From positions 1-48,113 of the forward strand of contig JACRDC010000113.1 of NCBI GenBank assembly GCA_016218705.1: DNA of 48,113 nucleotides, given 5' to 3'. A program made the position numbers and the translations under genes. This document shows positions 2,479-39,446 of the stretch, one piece after another. Under the pieces are notes generated by a model. It did not search any database. It was not told the DNA's origin and saw only the letters and a list, made by a program, of their open reading frames with translations. The stretch's first letter is position 1. Every line of letters begins with the position of its first letter. Origin of the DNA: Desulfarculus sp. Its GTDB lineage: Bacteria > Desulfobacterota > Desulfarculia > Desulfarculales > Desulfarculaceae.

Positions 2479-3146
2479 TAGTCCTGCCAGAGCTGCGGGT
2501 CAATAATGCCTATTTTTACCGCGTACTTGACCATGTCAAGCCGGTCTTTCAGGTTCAGCTTCTTCATGATGTTGGTGCGGTGCTTTTCCACGGTCTTGGG
2601 GCTGACGCACAAGACGTCGGCGATCTGGTTGGTGGAGTTGCCCTCGGCCACCAGGCGGAAAATCTGCTGCTCGCGCTCGGACAAGAGGTCATAGCCCCGG
2701 GGGGTGGGGGCCTGCTTGCGGCTGTCCAGGTAGGCGCCCACCACCTCGGCCTCGATCTTGGAGGAGAGGAAATACTCCCCCCGGTGCACGGCCTTGACCG
2801 CCTCCAGCACGTCGGAGACCGGCGAGGCCTTGAGCACGTAGGCCAGGGCCCCGGCGCTCAAGACCTGGCGCACGAAGGACTCCTTGCCGTGCATGGTCAG
2901 CACCACGATCTGGCAGGAGGGCACCGCCTCCTTGATGAGGCTCACCGCCTCCAGGCCGCTGACTCCGGGCATGCCGATGTCCAGGATGATGACATCGGGC
3001 TTCTGCGACTTGGCCAGGCCCAGGGCCTCCAGGCCGTCGCCGGCCTCGCCCACCACCTCCATGTCGGGCTGGGCGCCCAAGAGCTGCTTGAGCCCCGAGC
3101 GCACCACGGCGTGATCGTCGGCGATCAGGATGCGTATCTTGGTCAT
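2478..3146 (-). CDS. NarL/FixJ-family response regulator
   Basis: A 222-residue two-component DNA-binding regulator. The receiver domain is at about residues 4-120, with acidic pair D10/D11, phosphoacceptor D56 (ILDIGMPG), T84 and K106. A LuxR-type helix-turn-helix lies at about 154-213 (LSEREQQIFRLVAEGNS, then SPKTVEKHRTNIMKKL). An upstream ATG at 3206 would add 20 low-complexity residues; the ATG at 3146 was chosen because MTKIRILIADD begins the domain and GGGGGATC precedes it. The partner is almost certainly the SSS-histidine kinase encoded upstream. By analogy with CrbS/CrbR-type systems it probably controls acetate uptake or activation genes, including the adjacent DUF485-actP pair. That target is inferred. 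Confidence 0.92.
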   Translation of the reverse strand: MTKIRILIADDHAVVRSGLKQLLGAQPDMEVVGEAGDGLEALGLAKSQKPDVIILDIGMPGVSGLEAVSLIKEAVPSCQIVVLTMHGKESFVRQVLSAGALAYVLKASPVSDVLEAVKAVHRGEYFLSSKIEAEVVGAYLDSRKQAPTPRGYDLLSEREQQIFRLVAEGNSTNQIADVLCVSPKTVEKHRTNIMKKLNLKDRLDMVKYAVKIGIIDPQLWQD

Positions 3147-3216
3147 GATTGGCGATCCCCCATGAGGATGGCCGTTTGATTGCCAATTGGGATTGGCGCG
3201 CGCCACCTAGCAAGAT

Positions 3217-3326
3217 GTTGAAAAAGTCCGTCCCTGGACTTTTCCAACTCGAGTTAGCCGAAATGGGTCCGGCTAGCTCTCCCAAAAAGCTTGGCGCCAT
3301 AGCGCCCGCGCTTTTTGGCGGGCCAT
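3217..3326. repeat. Compound palindromic repeat between kinase and regulator genes
   Basis: Two hairpins are stacked here. GTTGAAAAAGTCC (3217-3229) pairs imperfectly with GGACTTTTCCAAC (3236-3248), and CCAAAAAGC (3282-3290) pairs with GCTTTTTGG (3310-3318). The right part, AAAAGCTTGGC...GCGCTTTTTGGCGGGCCAT, recurs at 9656-9696. A further TTTTTCAACGGACT near 3326-3340 mirrors the left end. It may separate transcription of the kinase gene from that of the regulator. Confidence 0.7.
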
Positions 3327-3408
3327 TTTTCAACGGACTGCTCAACTCTACGCCGTGGCCCCCGCCGGGCACAACCCCAGATTGCGGGCGCGCCCGGCCC
3401 CGCTGGCA

Positions 3409-6400
3409 TTACTCCTCGCCGGGGGCGTCGGGCTGCTCCACGGGCAGCTCGGCGCGGATGAGGGTGCCCTTGCCGGGCAGGGAGCGTATCTCGATGAAGC
3501 CGCCCACCGAGGCCACCCGTTCGCGCATGCCGATCAGCCCCACGCCGCCTCGGCCCAGGCCGGCCAGACCGGGGGCGGTCTCCTGCTTGAAGCCCAGGCC
3601 GTCGTCCTGGATGATGAAGATTACCCGGGGATGGCTATAGGTCAGCTTGACGCTCACCTGCTTGGCCTGGGCGTGCTTGGCCACGTTGTTCAGCCCCTCT
3701 TGCAGCAGGCGGTACAGGACAATCTCCAGGCGGGGGTCCAGGCGCTTTTTGATGGCGAAGCCCACGGCCTGGAAGTCCACCTCCAGGGTCGGCCAGCGCT
3801 TACGAAAGTCGCCCACGTACCACTCCATGGTGGAGACCAGGCCCAGGTGGTCCAGCATGTCGGGCCGAAGATCGCTGCTTATCTTGCGGATATTGTCGGC
3901 CAGCCCCTCGATCACCTCCACCAGTTGGCGGCAGCGGTCCCGCCGGGGGTCGTCCTCGGACAGGGTGTCTTCCAGGGCCTGCACGCCGAAGTGCAGGGCG
4001 GTCAGCGCCTGGCCGAACTCGTCGTGCAGATCGGCGGCCAAGCGCTTGCGCTCCTCCTCGATGCCGGCGATGAGCCGCCGCGAGAGGTTGCGGATGTCCT
4101 CCTCGGCCTGGCGGCGGGCGGTGACGTCGCGCACGTAGGCCAGCACCACCGCCTCGCCCCGGAAGGTGGTGGTGGTGGCGCTCACCCCCACCCACAGGGG
4201 GGTGCCGTCCTTGCGCACGCCCTTGAAGTCGTAACGCCGGGGGACATCGCGCCCCTCCTGGCGGGCCAGGCTCAGTTCCATCACCGGCAGCTTCTCGTCG
4301 GGGTGCACGATGGCCGACACCGGCTTGTCAATGATCTCGGCCCGCCGGCTGTAGCCGAACATCTCGGCGAACTTCTTGTTGAAGAAAAAGAAGCGCCCAT
4401 CCTTGATGAAGGCCACGCCGTCGTTGCTGCTCTCTATGGCCGTGCGGTAGCGCTCCTCCGACTCCCGCAGACGGGCCTCGGCCTGCAGGCGCATGAGTAT
4501 CTGGTCCTGCAACTGCAAGACCTTCTCCTCCAGTTCGCTGGCGTGGGCGCTGATGAGTTGCTCGCGCTCCTGGTAGAAGTCAATGCGCCGGATGAGGTCC
4601 TGGGGCCGGGCGCGCAGGTTGGCCAGTATCTCGGCGTAGACCTCGCCAAGCTCCTGGGACTCGCGGCCGCTGAACAGCCCGGCCTTGCCCAGGGCCTTGT
4701 GGGCCGCCGCCGAGCCCACCGAGCCGGCCAGGTACTTCTCCACCTCGTTGTACACCTCGGCCAGCTCGGTGATGGTGATGCGCCCCTTGCCGGTGAGCCC
4801 CACGGCCTGGATGCATCGCTGGGCCATGTAGGCGGCCTTGGCCCGGTCGAAAAAGCGGCCCAGGAGCTTCTCCACCCTCTCGCGCTTGGCGGCCAGGTCA
4901 ATGTAGGCCTCGCGCCGGCCAGTGCGCTCGAACATGGCCCCGCTGGATAGGGCACCCACGAACTCCTCGGCGTGGGACTGGCCCTCCTGGCTGGGCTTGA
5001 AGTACAAGGAGCCCAGCACGTAGAGGCCCAGGTTGCAGATCATGCTGAATAACACGGTGTGGCTCACCGGGTCTATGGCGCTGACGCCCAACAGGTGCTC
5101 GGGCCGAAGCCAGGAGACGCCCCAGGGCCCCTCTTGCATCAGCTCTGGCGTGAACCAGCCGCCGCGCACCAGGTTGGGCACCAGGGAGGTGTAACACCAG
5201 ACCAAGAAGCCCGCCGACAGCCCCAGGATGGCGCCGGCCTTGTTGCCTCCCGGCCAGAATATCCCCCCCAGGATGGCCGGGGCGAATTGCAGCATGCAGG
5301 CGAAGGCGATCATGCCGATGTGCACCAGCATCAGGGATTCGCCCACCCGCCGCTCGAACCAGTAGCCCAACAGGATGTACAACAGCACCGCCACCCAGCG
5401 GCACTCCAGCAGGTGACGCTCCAAAAAGCGCAGGCGCCTCACCCGCCCCACCAGGGGCAGCAGGAGGTCGTTGGTTATCATGGTGGCCATGGTCATGGAG
5501 CTGATGAGCACCATGCTGGTGGCCGCCGAGAAGCCGCCGATGAAGACCAACAGCGCCAGCCAGGGGTCGCCGTTCTGCAACGGCAGGCTGAGCACGTACA
5601 GGTCGGCCTGGTTCACGGGATGGCCCATCAAGAGACCGGCCATGGCAATGGGGTAGACAAAGATATTGATAAGAAGCATGTACAGGGGCAAAAGCCACAT
5701 GGCCTGGCGGATGTGCTTCTCGCTCTTGTTCTCCACCACCGCGATGTGGAACTGGCGGGGCAAAAACAGGATGGCGTTCATGGACAAGAGCAGGTAGGTG
5801 GTCCACTTGACCGCCGAGTTATCCTGGGTGAGGGCCGGCAGCCGCCCGGAGTCCACCGCCCGGGCCAGGCGGCCGAAGAGGTCGCCGAAGCCGTCGAAGA
5901 GAAAGTAGACCACGGAGACGCCGGCGGCCAGGAAGAGCACCAGCTTGATCAGCGACTCGGCGGCCACGGCCATGACCATGCCCTCGTGGCGCTCGGTGGG
6001 GTCCAGGCGGCGCACGCCGAAGATGATGGTGAAGACCACCATCAAGAGCACGATCAGGGGCCCCACGTTGGTGCCCACCCAGGCGGATGCCATGCCCTCG
6101 TCGCTGGTGATGATGGCGAAGGTGGAGTAGATGGCCTTGAGCTGCAGGGCGATGTAGGGCATGTTGCCCAACAGCGCCACCAGGGTGGCGATGGCCGCCA
6201 GGGTCTCCGACTTCTCGTAGCGCACGCTGATGAAGTCGGCGATGGAGGTGATGTGGTGGCTGGCCTTCAGTCGCACCAGCTTGCGCAACAGGGTCCACCA
6301 GAAGATGATGCCCAGGGTGGGGCCCAGGTACACCGTCATGAAAAGCATGCCGCCGGTGGCGGCCACGCCCACCGAGCCGTAGTAGGTCCAGGTGGTGCAG

Positions 6401-14282: not shown

Positions 14283-14765
14283 TCAGGCGTAGAAGATGCC
14301 TTCCACCTCGGCTGTGATGGTCTCCTCGCTGGCCTGGCGGGCGATGGAGATTTCCTTGACCAAGAGGCTGCGGGCGGTGTCCAGCATCTTGCGTTCGCCG
14401 AAGGAGAGGTCCTTGTCCAGCTTGAGCAAAAAGAGGTCGCGCAATACCTGGGCCACCTCGAAGACCGAGCCGGTCTTGATCTTCTTCATGTAGTCGCGGT
14501 AGCGGCGGTTCCAGGTCTGGTTCTCAATGATTACGTCGTGGTCCTTGAGGATGGCGTAGACCTGGGGCACTTCCTTGGCGCCGATCACCGGCCTCAGACC
14601 CACGTTGTCGGCGTTGTCGGTGGGGATCATGATGATCATTTCGTTGTCGAGGATGCGCAGGATGTAGAAGGACTGCTCGGCGCCGCCGATATGGCGCTGC
14701 TCCACCGACTCGATCATGCCCACGCCGTGGGCGGGATACACGGCAAGCTGACCCACCCTAAACAT
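14283..14765 (-). CDS. CarD/CdnL-family RNA polymerase-binding regulator
   Basis: A 160-residue protein. An N-terminal Tudor-like RNA-polymerase-binding domain (about 1-60, FRVGQLAVYPAHGVGMIESVE) is followed by a helical DNA-binding domain with the family signature NQTWNRRYRDYMKKIKTG near 82-99. CdnL/CarD proteins stabilise open complexes at housekeeping promoters, rRNA promoters in particular. The gene has its own strong sigma-70-type promoter with an overlapping palindrome and is insulated from hppA by a terminator, so it appears to be an independent unit that may read into rluD-coaE. Confidence 0.93.
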   Translation of the reverse strand: MFRVGQLAVYPAHGVGMIESVEQRHIGGAEQSFYILRILDNEMIIMIPTDNADNVGLRPVIGAKEVPQVYAILKDHDVIIENQTWNRRYRDYMKKIKTGSVFEVAQVLRDLFLLKLDKDLSFGERKMLDTARSLLVKEISIARQASEETITAEVEGIFYA

Positions 14766-14815
14766 AAGGCGTCCCCGCTGAAAAAAGTGCCCGATAACAC
14801 CTTGAATGAATTTCT

Positions 14816-14843
14816 ATTTTACCAATTGTCACCTTGTTGTCAA
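14816..14843 (-). promoter_or_regulatory. Strong sigma-70-type promoter for carD
   Basis: On the minus strand TTGACA (14838-14843) is followed after 16 bases by TAAAAT (14816-14821). That is 6/6 and 5/6 matches, with an AT-rich spacer in a GC-rich genome. The predicted leader is about 44 nucleotides. Confidence 0.75.
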
Positions 14844-14846
14844 CAA
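14834..14846. promoter_or_regulatory. Palindrome overlapping the carD -35 box
   Basis: TTGTTG-T-CAACAA is a perfect 6-bp inverted repeat centred on the -35 hexamer, a position suited to a repressor operator. No regulator can be named. Confidence 0.45.
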
Positions 14847-14881
14847 CAAAAGGCCTTTGGCGTCCCTCCTGGCGCAAAGAA

Positions 14882-14914
14882 GAAGGCCGGCGGAGGGTCG
14901 CTCCGCCGGCCTTC
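14882..14914 (-). terminator. Intrinsic terminator of hppA
   Basis: A perfect 14-bp stem GAAGGCCGGCGGAG / CTCCGCCGGCCTTC with a 5-base loop, followed on the minus strand by TTCTTTG. It lies about 25 bases after the hppA stop. Confidence 0.85.
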
Positions 14915-14939
14915 GCGGGGCCAGGTCAGATGGCGGTCA

Positions 14940-16994
<2,055 letters not shown>

Positions 16995-17032
16995 CTCTCC
17001 TCCGTTAAAAGGGTCTTACTGAAACCCAGTTA

Positions 17033-17653
17033 CTAAATTGATGAAACCTCTTTCCTCAATCCCCTCGCGTTGTATTTGTTCATGGCCGCCGTGGCTCCCA
17101 AGGCCACGATGACCTCCAGGCAGTCGGCGGCCTCGTTCACCGCCTGTTGGATCGTCTCGCGCTGGTCGGCGTAGAAGCCGCTCAACACGTAATCCTCCAC
17201 CGCCTCGCCGAACCGCGGCCGGCCGATGCCCACCTTGAGGCGCAGGAACCGGCCGCTGTGCAGGTGCGCAAGCAGGGAAGCCACCCCCTTGTGCCCGCCG
17301 GCGCCACCCCCGGTGGCCACCTTCAGGCGGCCTGGCTCCAGGTCCAGGTCATCATGCACCACCACCACCCGCTCTAGCGGCAGATCGAAGTAGCCCATTA
17401 TGCCCTGGGCGGCCTGGCCGCTCAAGTTCATATAGGTCTGGGGCTGGGCCATTATTACCTTGCGCCCAGCCAGGCGTCCCTCGCTCCACAAGCTGGAGTG
17501 CCCCCGCCGAGTCAGGGACACGCCCAGGCGCCGCGCCAGTTCCGCCACCACCATGAAACCCAGGTTGTGGCGGGTTTCCGCGTATTGCGGCCCGGGGTTG
17601 CCCAGGCCCAACACCAGGACCGGGCCCGCGGGCAGACCCTCGTCCCTGGTCAA
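17033..17653 (-). CDS. pth: Peptidyl-tRNA hydrolase
   Basis: About 206 residues. It recycles tRNA by cleaving peptidyl-tRNA esters. LVLGLGNPGPQYAETRHNLGF contains the conserved Asn and catalytic His (TRHN), MAQPQTYMNLSG is the second motif, and VHDDLDLEPG carries the catalytic Asp. The GGGAGGHKGVASL loop is also present. The start is uncertain: the only reasonable codon is TTG at 17653, six bases after the rplY stop, giving 13 residues before the first strand. The gene lies directly after rplY, the common Ctc-Pth order, and is probably translated from the same message. Confidence 0.95.
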   Translation of the reverse strand: MTRDEGLPAGPVLVLGLGNPGPQYAETRHNLGFMVVAELARRLGVSLTRRGHSSLWSEGRLAGRKVIMAQPQTYMNLSGQAAQGIMGYFDLPLERVVVVHDDLDLEPGRLKVATGGGAGGHKGVASLLAHLHSGRFLRLKVGIGRPRFGEAVEDYVLSGFYADQRETIQQAVNEAADCLEVIVALGATAAMNKYNARGLRKEVSSI

Positions 17654-36559: not shown

Positions 36560-37138
36560 ATCTGCCTCTTCGTCGTTTCCTGTGGAATTGGGTTTTGCGG
36601 TTGCTCGGGGCACAAGCTTGTAGGTTGGGTCTCGCGCAGCGAAACCCAACATCTTCATTCCTGCCGCACCCGGCGCATGCCAAATGAAGATGTTGGGTTA
36701 CGGGGCCGTTGGCCCCTAACCCAACCTACAAGAGCCGTGGCCCTCGGCCTGCCGCGGGTGGCCCGGACAACTTGTTGTCCGGGTGCCGAAGGCACAAGAG
36801 GTTCCTTGCTGCGTAGCCTGCCGTCTAACCAGCAGCCTCCTGCCCGTCAACCCTTTCCCCAACCTCTTGCCGCCGCGCGGCCACGCCGTCACCCGTGCCC
36901 ATGGTCACCCATAAAGATCAAGCAGGGTGGATTGCTTCGCCGCACCTCAACCGGGTGCTCCTCGCCATGACACTATTGCCGGAGGCCCCCTCACCCCGGC
37001 CCTCTCCCCCGGTGGGGGCGAGGGTGTGGGACGGGAGCCGCCGGCCCCGGCCAATTCCACCACCCCATTCGGCCCGTTTACGCCCAGCGGCGGGCTCGCC
37101 GCCCAGCGGCGGGCTCGCGGCCCCGCCGCGGCGCGAGG
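36560..37138. other. Repeat-packed intergenic region right of the AT-rich island
   Basis: No gene is supported. From left to right it holds the nested GTAGGTTGGGT palindrome (36617-36732), the perfect palindrome CCGGACAACTTGTTGTCCGG (36763-36782), a fragment resembling the TCATTGCGAG element near 36930-36960, a CCCCTCACCCCGGCCCTCTC block near 36990, and a duplicated CCCAGCGGCGGGCTCG (about 37083-37115). Confidence 0.6.
36617..36732. repeat. Nested GTAGGTTGGGT palindromic element
   Basis: The outer arms CTTGTAGGTTGGGT (36617-36630) and ACCCAACCTACAAG (36719-36732) are perfect inverted repeats. The inner arms AACCCAACATCTTCATT (36643-36659) and AATGAAGATGTTGGGTT (36683-36699) are also perfect. 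The sequence type is common in intergenic DNA of many bacteria and is probably a non-autonomous repeat. Confidence 0.85.
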
Positions 37139-37513
37139 TTACCAGTGGTGCCGGGGGCCGTGGGGCGGCTGCCAGCGGTGCTGATGGTGGTGATGGGGCC
37201 AGGGGCCGGGCAGGCGCACGGTGAGGTGACGCGGCCCCAGCACCAGATGGGGGGGCAGGCTGGGACCCCACAGCCAACGCCCGCCGCTGAGCCAGAAGTA
37301 CTGGCCGCGCAGGGGGTCGTAGTAGACCTGCTGGCCGGGGTAGTAGTGGTAGGTGTAGACCGGGGCCGCCGGCGGGGGCGCCACCACCACGGCCGGCGGC
37401 GGCGGGCAGAGACCCACGGAGATGCTCAAGGACGGGTGGCCGGCCTGGGCGGGCTGGGCCAGCACGGCGGCCAAAGCCGCCGCGCCCAGGGCCAGGGTAA
37501 GCTTCTTGTTCAT
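37139..37513 (-). CDS. Exported His/Tyr/Pro-rich protein
   Basis: A 124-residue secreted protein. A signal peptide (KLTLALGAAALAAVLAQPAQA) is followed by a Pro-rich segment and the aromatic block YHYYPGQQVYYDPLRGQYFW, then LSGGRWLWGPSLPPHL. The C-terminus is rich in His (PHHHHQHRW, HGPRHHW). The pattern YYP..VYYD..R..YFW...W resembles small exported proteins seen in several proteobacteria whose role is unknown. The His-rich tail suggests metal binding. The ATG at 37513 has GGGAGGAC upstream. It lies third in a row of small envelope genes behind a sigma-54 promoter. Confidence 0.8.
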   Translation of the reverse strand: MNKKLTLALGAAALAAVLAQPAQAGHPSLSISVGLCPPPPAVVVAPPPAAPVYTYHYYPGQQVYYDPLRGQYFWLSGGRWLWGPSLPPHLVLGPRHLTVRLPGPWPHHHHQHRWQPPHGPRHHW

Positions 37514-37586
37514 GACGTCCTCCCTGATTGCTTGGCCCAAGGCCCTGGCCGGAGGCCGGGGGATGGCCGGCTCCCTCTGTGGACCG

Positions 37587-37775
37587 TTAGCGCCAATGGC
37601 CATGGTGCCAACCGCCGTGCCGATAGGGTGCCACCCAGGGCGCGGGGCGGTGGTGTCCGTGCCAGCGGCCATGGCCGCCATCATGGTAGGGGGCGGCCAC
37701 CACGCAGCCCATGAGGCTGGTCAAGGCCAGGAGCAGCAGCGAGGCCACGGCGGTGATGAGGGCGCGGCGGGACAT
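37587..37775 (-). CDS. Small His-rich lipoprotein
   Basis: A 62-residue lipoprotein. The signal ends in a lipobox LTSLMGC with the lipidated Cys at residue 24. The mature part is only 39 residues and very rich in His, Gly and Trp (HDGGHGRWHGHH, then RHGGWHHGHWR). The ribosome binding site AAGGAGGT is nearly perfect. It could bind metal ions at the membrane surface, which is inferred from composition alone. It lies 73 bases upstream of the exported His/Tyr-rich gene and about 100 bases downstream of the Lys/Pro-rich exported gene, all in the same direction. Confidence 0.8.
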   Translation of the reverse strand: MSRRALITAVASLLLLALTSLMGCVVAAPYHDGGHGRWHGHHRPAPWVAPYRHGGWHHGHWR

Positions 37776-37875
37776 GGCGATTACCTCCTTGGTATTTGTG
37801 CTGCCTTCTGGGGGGGCGGCGGCCCCGCCGGGCTGGGGTGCCGGGGGGCCGCCGCTGACCAGGAGGCGGGAGAGG

Positions 37876-38307
37876 TTACTTCTTCTCGGGCGCGGCCGGG
37901 GTGACGGTCTTATCCGGCGCGGCCTTGGTCTCCGGGGTCTTGGTGGGCTCGGCCTTGACCGCCGGGGCGGGGATGGCGGCCTTGGTCTCCGGGGCCTTGG
38001 TGGGCTCGGCCTTCAGCGCCGAGGCCGGCATGGCCTTGGCCGGGGTGGCCTTGCTGTCAACCGCCTTGGGCAGGTCCACCATGACCTTCTTGCCCTTGAC
38101 GTCCACCTCCATCTTGCCGTCCTTGATGGCCTTGAGGCTGCCGTCCACCTTGTTGCCGTCGCACTTGTCCTTGGCCTGCATCAGGGTGTAGGCGCCCTGC
38201 TTCTCGCAGAGGTTCAGCTTGTCGCCCACCTTGGGGGCGCTGGCCAGGGCCAGTCCGGGGATGGCCAGGGCGACGATCAGGGCGGTGGCGCTCGCTATCT
38301 TCTTCAT
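37876..38307 (-). CDS. Exported Lys/Pro/Ala-rich protein with internal repeats
   Basis: A 143-residue exported protein. A signal peptide (KKIASATALIVALAIPGLALA) precedes a small domain of about 70 residues with two Cys (NLCEKQGAYTLMQAKDKCDG) likely to form a disulfide. The C-terminal half is a low-complexity tail with two copies of KAEPTKxPETKAA, matched by a direct repeat in the DNA. The ribosome binding site is AAGGAG. It is the first gene after a perfect sigma-54 promoter match about 60-70 bases upstream. No family is recognised; a cell-wall- or surface-associated role is possible. Confidence 0.8.
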   Translation of the reverse strand: MKKIASATALIVALAIPGLALASAPKVGDKLNLCEKQGAYTLMQAKDKCDGNKVDGSLKAIKDGKMEVDVKGKKVMVDLPKAVDSKATPAKAMPASALKAEPTKAPETKAAIPAPAVKAEPTKTPETKAAPDKTVTPAAPEKK

Positions 38308-38380
38308 GGTCCGTGCTCCTTATGTCCGTTGTTGTGGTCTTTTGTTCTTCGCGGGGTTCGCCCCGCTTGCCAGGGGATAG

Positions 38381-38396
38381 AGCAACCGGCGTGCCA
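38381..38396 (-). promoter_or_regulatory. Sigma-54 (RpoN) promoter
   Basis: On the minus strand TGGCACGCCGGTTGCT matches the consensus TGGCACG-N4-TTGCW at every fixed position, with correct -24/-12 spacing. The predicted start point lies about 60 bases before the ATG at 38307. Confidence 0.75.
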
Positions 38397-38401
38397 TGCT
38401 G

Positions 38402-38411
38402 CAACATGTTG
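38402..38411. promoter_or_regulatory. Palindrome CAACATGTTG next to the sigma-54 promoter
   Basis: A perfect 10-bp palindrome begins 6 bases upstream of the -24 element. It could bind a regulator. Weak on its own. Confidence 0.35.
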
Positions 38412-38457
38412 AATTGACGTTGATTATTTGATGTGGCCCTGGCGGGGCCGGGGGGCG

Positions 38458-38474
38458 TGCGCAATCTTTGCGCA
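38458..38474. promoter_or_regulatory. Candidate upstream activator site
   Basis: TGCGCAA-TCT-TTGCGCA is a perfect 7-bp-arm inverted repeat about 60-75 bases upstream of the sigma-54 -24 element, a normal place for an enhancer-binding protein. A further half site TTGCGC lies at about 38491. Confidence 0.5.
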
Positions 38475-38678
38475 AGAGGGGAGCGTTCTTTTGCGCTAGG
38501 AGGGCCAGGATGGGGTGTGCCAAGAAGGGGGGCTGGCGATAGGCCAGGCATGCCCTCAAGGCTAGCCAGCCGGCGGGTTACGCTTGGCTAACCCGCCCTA
38601 CGTTCTCATCCATTCTTGGAAGGCTGCCATGGTGAGCCGGGCGTGAGCTTTTTGAGGCAAAAATTAAGGAACAGGCTC
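38475..38678. other. Intergenic region between the sigma-54 unit and rnc
   Basis: No gene is seen. GGCGGGTTA (38572-38580) and TAACCCGCC (38589-38597) form a hairpin of a type common in intergenic repeats. Confidence 0.5.
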
Positions 38679-39446
38679 TCAGCGGGAGCCGCCAGCATCG
38701 GTTGGCGGAAGGGCCTCGCCCGACCCGTCATCGCCAGCCGCGGCTCGCGGCCAGAGGTCCAGGCCTTGTTGGGCGGCGTGCTGCTCGGCCTCTTTTTTTG
38801 AGCGGCCCTGGCCGGTGGCCACGGCCTGGCCGTCAATCTCCACGCTGACCAAAAAGAGCTTGTCGTGGTCCGGCCCCTCGGCGGAGAGCAGCAGGTAGCG
38901 GGGAGTGATGTGCAGGGCCTCCTGCACCCGTTCCTGCAGGCGGGTCTTGTAATCCTTCTTGGGGGCGCGCAGGATGGCCTGCTCGGCCACCGGCCCCAGC
39001 AGGTTCAGGAGCACCTGGCGGGCGGCCTCCAGGCCACCGTCGAGGTAGATGGCGGCGGCCACCGCCTCCAGGGCGTCGGCCAGGATGCTGGGCTTCTGGT
39101 GGCCGTTCTGGCTTTCCTCGCCCTTGCCCAAGAGAAGGTAATGGCCCAGGCCCAGGGTGCCGGCGGTGGCGGCCAGGCGGCCCTCGTTGACCACGCCGGA
39201 GCGGGCCTTGCTGAGCTGCCCCTCGCTGGCCTGGGGAAAGCGCTCGAAGAGAAGCTGGGTTATCACCAGCTCCAGCACGGCGTCGCCCAAGAATTCCATG
39301 CGCTCGTTGGATTCGCCGGCCTGATCGGGGTGTTCATGCACGTAGGAGGAGTGGCGCAGGGCCGCCTCCAGAAGCCCCAGGTCATGGAAGTGGTAGCCCA
39401 GCTTGTCCGACAATTCCGCCAGGGCGGCGGCGCGTTCCTGGTCCAT
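38679..39446 (-). CDS. rnc: Ribonuclease III
   Basis: A 255-residue double-strand-specific endoribonuclease for rRNA and mRNA processing. The signature NERMEFLGDAVLE is at residues 47-59, with the metal-binding Glu/Asp pair, and ADALEAVAAAIYLDGG holds the second acidic pair. A double-stranded RNA-binding domain follows (about 170-240, TGQGRSKKEAEQHAAQQGL). A 20-residue Gly/Asp tail exceeds the usual length (E. coli RNase III has 226). The gene appears to be alone here, without lepB or era next to it, and is divergent from the glycosyltransferase gene. Confidence 0.97.
   Translation of the reverse strand: MDQERAAALAELSDKLGYHFHDLGLLEAALRHSSYVHEHPDQAGESNERMEFLGDAVLELVITQLLFERFPQASEGQLSKARSGVVNEGRLAATAGTLGLGHYLLLGKGEESQNGHQKPSILADALEAVAAAIYLDGGLEAARQVLLNLLGPVAEQAILRAPKKDYKTRLQERVQEALHITPRYLLLSAEGPDHDKLFLVSVEIDGQAVATGQGRSKKEAEQHAAQQGLDLWPRAAAGDDGSGEALPPTDAGGSR

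Follow-up and report, generated by a model that had tools for sequence, protein, structure and literature searches.

A putative sigma-54-dependent operon for three small exported proteins in one genus of the Desulfarculaceae

Three described systems bear comparison with the locus reported here. ZraR and ZraP make up a zinc-dependent sigma-54 envelope-stress response, as described in the available part of PMC4987338; a PEP-CTERM gene depends on RpoN according to the accessible portion of PMC9850573; and the sigma-54 regulome of Desulfovibrio vulgaris comprises 36 regulons, envelope stress included, in the part of PMC4641369 at hand. With this last system, as far as it is set out there, the locus has in common a genome with many activators and the format of a small sigma-54 operon with a palindromic activator site. 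The main text of that paper, in the same part, contains neither the word "lipoprotein" nor the motif GCGCAA, and no paper on the operon itself was found in the literature searched (Desulfarculus/RpoN/lipoprotein, sigma-54).

The window, that is the whole stretch of 48,113 nucleotides of Desulfarculus sp. DNA which was analysed, carries three small genes, here called P1, P2 and P3, behind a putative sigma-54 promoter (Table 1). Promoter, palindrome, gene order and export signals are all read directly from the sequence. As in ZraSR/ZraP, a sigma-54 promoter precedes a gene for a small exported protein and possible metal-binding residues are present. The locus differs in that no zraSR-like pair adjoins it, the upstream neighbour being rnc and the downstream one an HNH gene on the opposite strand, in that it has three genes instead of one, and in that none of their products matches a Pfam family.

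Table 1. Features of the locus, with positions in the window.
Feature	Position	Strand	Remarks
rnc	38679-39446		RNase III by Pfam; upstream neighbour of the operon
Upstream half-site GCGCAA	38496-38491	minus	6/6 columns invariant in three genomes
Palindrome TGCGCAA-AGA-TTGCGCA	38474-38458	minus	presumed enhancer-binding-protein site (UAS); conserved in three genomes
Sigma-54 (RpoN) -24/-12 promoter TGGCACGCCGGTTGCT	38396-38381	minus	full RpoN match
P1	37876-38307	minus	exported, 143 aa; predicted barrel domain (low-depth model), then Lys/Pro/Ala/Thr repeat tail
Stem-loop between P1 and P2	37816-37855	minus	strong, G+C-rich, no T-run
P2	37587-37775	minus	62-aa lipoprotein with lipobox Cys; 39-residue His/Gly/Trp-rich mature part
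P3	37139-37513	minus	exported, 124 aa, AQA/G-type cut; His-rich tail

Promoter, palindrome and conservation in the genus

The RpoN consensus is defined by GG at -24 and GC at -12, with the flanks TGGCAY-N5-TTGCW. In TGGCACGCCGGTTGCT both dinucleotides are found within consensus flanks, as the sequence-only reading of this DNA had recognised. The 4.2-Mb genome holds 22 copies of the exact pattern TGGCACN5TTGCW and a single copy of the reversed pattern, used as control, so that most of the exact matches are probably real; some of the others sit 5' of genes which by eye look like flagellar or transport genes. When one mismatch is allowed the window contains a single match, the exact one, against 2.47 expected from shuffles. 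This count is by itself no proof, and the case for the promoter is therefore made by the genome-wide control together with conservation. A search of the genome for the sigma-54 activator domain gave 33 matches, which imply that rpoN is present.

The 15-base core of the palindrome (38473-38459) is separated from the promoter by 62 bases, in agreement with the palindrome of 7-bp arms previously placed about 60-75 bases upstream. A second exact copy of the core is not present in the genome. Seven near-matches, each with one or two mismatches, occur elsewhere, and within 400 bases of them no convincing RpoN site was found, the one weak candidate being at L071.

Of the 20 family genomes, three contained P1: G000, from which the window comes, G013 and G017. 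All three belong to one genus of six genomes. In a draw of 395 genomes of the phylum P1 was matched in G000 only, G013 and G017 not being among the matches. In both relatives P1, P2 and P3 follow in this order behind promoter and palindrome. The sequence-only reading had made its promoter depend on conservation in related genomes, and had proposed looking there for the same three genes behind an RpoN site; both were found in G013 and G017. The three-way alignment shows invariance in 15/15 columns of the palindrome core, 6/6 of the half-site, 14/16 of the promoter and 19/62 of the spacer. The palindrome falls inside a run of 16 invariant columns, a run reached in 3 of 100,000 column shuffles. 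An activator-type palindrome is conserved 5' of the promoter, as is typical of sigma-54 control. The combination of palindrome, 45-75 bases and promoter occurs once each in G000, G013 and G017 and in none of the 17 other family genomes (reversed control 0).

This conservation rests on three genomes of which two are close, the proteins of G000 and G013 being 95-96% identical, and for this reason most of the independent evidence comes from comparing with G017 (75% identity for P1, 59% for P2 and 67% for P3). The dN/dS values (NG86) of P1, P2 and P3 are, in this order, 0.27, 0.11 and 0.20 between G000 and G013, 0.51, 0.94 and 0.37 between G000 and G017, and 0.43, 0.41 and 0.42 between G013 and G017. 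The value of 0.94 for P2 (0.41 and 0.11 in the other two pairs) indicates that this protein is weakly constrained. Neither P1 nor P3 was found in G016, a genome which is 97% complete, and the operon is therefore dispensable. G014 and G015 are incomplete and P1 was not found in either; the sole P3-like gene of G014 is a paralogue adjoining a purD-like gene. By these genome comparisons the three-gene set is restricted to the genus.

It could be argued that the promoter match is due to chance and that the genes are expressed some other way, since about two and a half one-mismatch matches would be expected in the window. The match is however exact, the pattern is enriched across the genome, promoter and palindrome are conserved, and the operon region yielded no sigma-70-like site, all of which make this explanation highly improbable. 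An operon controlled by sigma-54 and an enhancer-binding protein is, judging from the sequence, very likely.

Each of the three genes is preceded by a Shine-Dalgarno-like stretch (by eye), and no terminator-like site was found between them. All three genomes retain the stem-loop located in the P1-P2 gap, with z-scores of -4.8, -4.1 and -2.5. In the consensus fold its outer arms, CCTCCTGG, are predicted to pair with the Shine-Dalgarno of P2, and may do so; since two-sided changes are seen in only one of 27 pairs, the fold has no covariation support. Other repeats in the surroundings include two inverted repeats that resemble REP elements, with the pattern GGGTTA...GTAACCC (36695-36722 and 38575-38594; 0 in 100 shuffles), one of which falls between rnc and the operon, and an exact 19-nt tandem repeat directly 3' of P3 (37081-37118). 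In G013 a toxin-antitoxin-like pair, HigB-like plus helix-turn-helix by eye, is located between rnc and the operon (L038:5619-6243).

The three exported proteins

By eye, each of the three proteins carries an export signal in each of the three genomes, and the open reading frames confirm an exported Lys/Pro/Ala repeat protein, a His-rich lipoprotein and an exported protein with a His-rich tail, as originally described from the sequence. P1 has a signal peptide of the ALA/S type, two cysteines which are invariant in the three genomes (Cys34 and Cys49) and a Lys/Pro/Ala tail whose coding sequence holds a 57-nt tandem repeat with copies 89% identical. A model built on three sequences gives residues 30-78 five strands with a pLDDT of about 80, against a mean of 55. 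Foldseek returned for it generic small barrels only (Hfq, Tudor, SH3-like) and no PDB match at E <= 0.001. This part of about 50 residues is modelled as a generic five-stranded small barrel, a low-depth prediction. P1 matches no Pfam family, and in NCBIfam nothing scored above its cut-off.

P3 is taken to start at the ATG at 37513, which gives 124 amino acids; the start proposed by the ORF lister is further upstream, within P2. After the export signal it has the core YYPxxQVYxDxxRGxYFW...W.xG..LP, by which it is assigned to a wider exported family, and the structure predicted for it has low confidence, with a pLDDT of 58. Members of this family were detected in 11 of the 20 family genomes (E <= 0.001) and in 38 of the 395 phylum genomes (E <= 1e-4), and no P3 match was found among plasmids. 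To our knowledge no function is on record for it. Members from sister genera, located beside a gene that by eye looks like purD, share with P3 the core YRYYPxxQVYFDxxRGLYFW...W.xG..LP, but differ in having KPPGGxPPGQAKK after the signal, in lacking the His-rich tail and, mostly, in lacking an RpoN site. Out of 29 loci from the phylum search the motif located the gene in 21, the other eight being dropped as not located. A near match to the RpoN pattern precedes just one of these 21 genes (L106). Partners resembling P2 are missing as well, save in one g4 genome, where a tiny lipoprotein is encoded immediately 3' (L105/L043). RpoN control and the partnership with P2 therefore seem to be features of the genus and not of the family. 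In that sister-genus locus (L043:6943-7618) the P3-like gene is directly followed by a gene for a 61-aa lipoprotein and then by the purD-like gene.

The histidines of P2 and P3 had given rise to the proposal of metal handling. On this reading the two proteins would be envelope ligands of Zn, Cu or Ni, with an activator that senses the metal, as is the case with ZraR and ZraP. Mature P2 of the window has nine His (and two Tyr) in 39 residues, the P3 tail keeps H109, H110, H112, H118 and H122 in the three genomes, and ZraR/ZraP are a real sigma-54 precedent for zinc and envelope stress (PMC4987338, in its available part). Against this, only three of the nine P2 histidines are invariant (H35, H39 and H58), and in G017, with five His and seven Tyr in the 33 residues of its mature P2, tyrosine has largely taken their place. 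No metal transporter or regulator gene was recognised adjoining the cluster, where the upstream neighbour is rnc, and a Pfam search with E up to 10 returned no family for any of P1-P3. The same null result means that no ZraP-like protein, which we take to be of the Metal_resist/Spy type, was found among the three. Metal handling is in our view quite unlikely and was set aside as the main reading for the poor conservation of the P2 histidines; what stands of the original interpretation is the RpoN promoter with its conserved activator-type site, followed by three exported proteins whose order is conserved. An envelope stress response is possible. Within the libraries searched, Pfam and NCBIfam, the results are consistent with the statement that no named system has this composition.

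PEP-CTERM proteins carry a C-terminal PEP motif, a membrane segment and a basic cluster. When the C-termini of P1, P2 and P3 were inspected directly, by eye, this signal was absent from all three, and the operon contains no polysaccharide or sorting gene. Both observations weigh against a surface or matrix structure, such as a layer of the cell wall or of a biofilm, produced through RpoN and not as a stress response, even if the Lys/Pro tail of P1 and the Gly/aromatic-rich character of P2 and P3 would suit it and there is precedent for PEP-CTERM matrix genes controlled by RpoN (PMC9850573, in its accessible portion). We regard such a structure as rather unlikely, with a somewhat better chance than metal handling.

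Candidate activators

In G017 a gene for an NtrC-type regulator lies about 195 bases 3' of P3, and next to it, further 3', a J-domain gene preceded by a separate RpoN site. The pair is conserved in the genus (L039:529-3033; L076, about 14665-17337), and its J-protein is, by sequence, apparently under sigma-54 control. The operon could thus belong to the regulon of this regulator together with the J-domain gene, given that they are adjacent on the same strand in G017 and that an RpoN-like site precedes all five located copies of the J-domain gene (the G016 copy was not located). In G000 and G013, however, the pair is on another contig, unlinked to the operon; orthologues (77-80%) occur in G014, G015 and G016, genomes in which no P1 was detected; the palindrome is missing from the promoters of all five J-domain genes; and the G017 contig measures 5.2 kb and comes from a 640-contig assembly. 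As the orthologues occur without P1 and the palindrome is missing at the J-gene promoters, the adjacency is probably incidental, shared regulation is improbable, and this regulator is probably not the cognate activator.

A co-occurrence screen for activators started from 140 domain matches in G000, G013, G017 and G016, of which 134 went into the analysis as loci (33, 30, 34 and 37, respectively) and six short matches in G013 were left out; L187 and L266 had no usable frame. For five activators of G000, reciprocal best hits were obtained with G013 and G017 and not with G016 (L163, L166, L175, L182 and L184). The neighbours of several of them, including by eye kinase- and transporter-like genes, a TRAP-type binding protein and a PEP-CTERM-like gene, suggest other jobs, and for this reason none was picked as the cognate activator. 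L166 (G000:C72, 1027-2439) is a sigma-54 response regulator, for which the AtoC, NifA and PEP-CTERM-box models all scored below their cut-offs. It is divergent from an exported gene (about 2897-3498) with the RpoN-like site AGGCATGAAGTTTGCT, and the two are possibly a PEP-CTERM-type regulon.

Proposed mechanism and meaning

In the mechanism we favour, an enhancer-binding protein would bind GCGCAA-N3-TTGCGC and perhaps also the half-site 17 bases further up, and would contact the sigma-54 polymerase across the 62-base gap. Activation would yield one transcript for P1, P2 and P3, co-transcription being what we infer from their arrangement. The stem-loop after P1 would probably raise P1 over P2 and P3, either by protection of the P1 message or by masking of the P2 start. 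The products would then be exported, P1 to the periplasm, P2 to be anchored as a lipoprotein and P3 to the periplasm or the surface, where their most likely task would be to cover or shield the cell envelope when the inducing condition prevails, in analogy to other sigma-54 envelope responses. This envelope role is the weakest step and, being argued from analogy, is put forward tentatively, with somewhat less than even confidence.

Taken as a whole, a single sigma-54-dependent operon P1-P2-P3 with an enhancer-binding protein acting at the palindrome and products destined for the envelope is the reading we hold to be reasonably probable. A more elaborate version is speculative and has little probability: a genus-specific envelope module, having its own activator motif GCGCAA-N3-TTGCGC for only one promoter of the genome; within this module the barrel/Lys-Pro-tail protein, the aromatic/His lipoprotein and the YYP-family protein would assemble in ratios set by the stem-loop.

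The sigma-54 operon is very probably real and conserved, and its content is unfamiliar. It would provide a clean and testable sigma-54 switch, apparently with one target, in an uncultured group, and brings with it an activator motif without an assigned protein and a set of three exported, so far uncharacterised proteins. One of the three is from a family present in 38 of 395 sampled genomes of the phylum.
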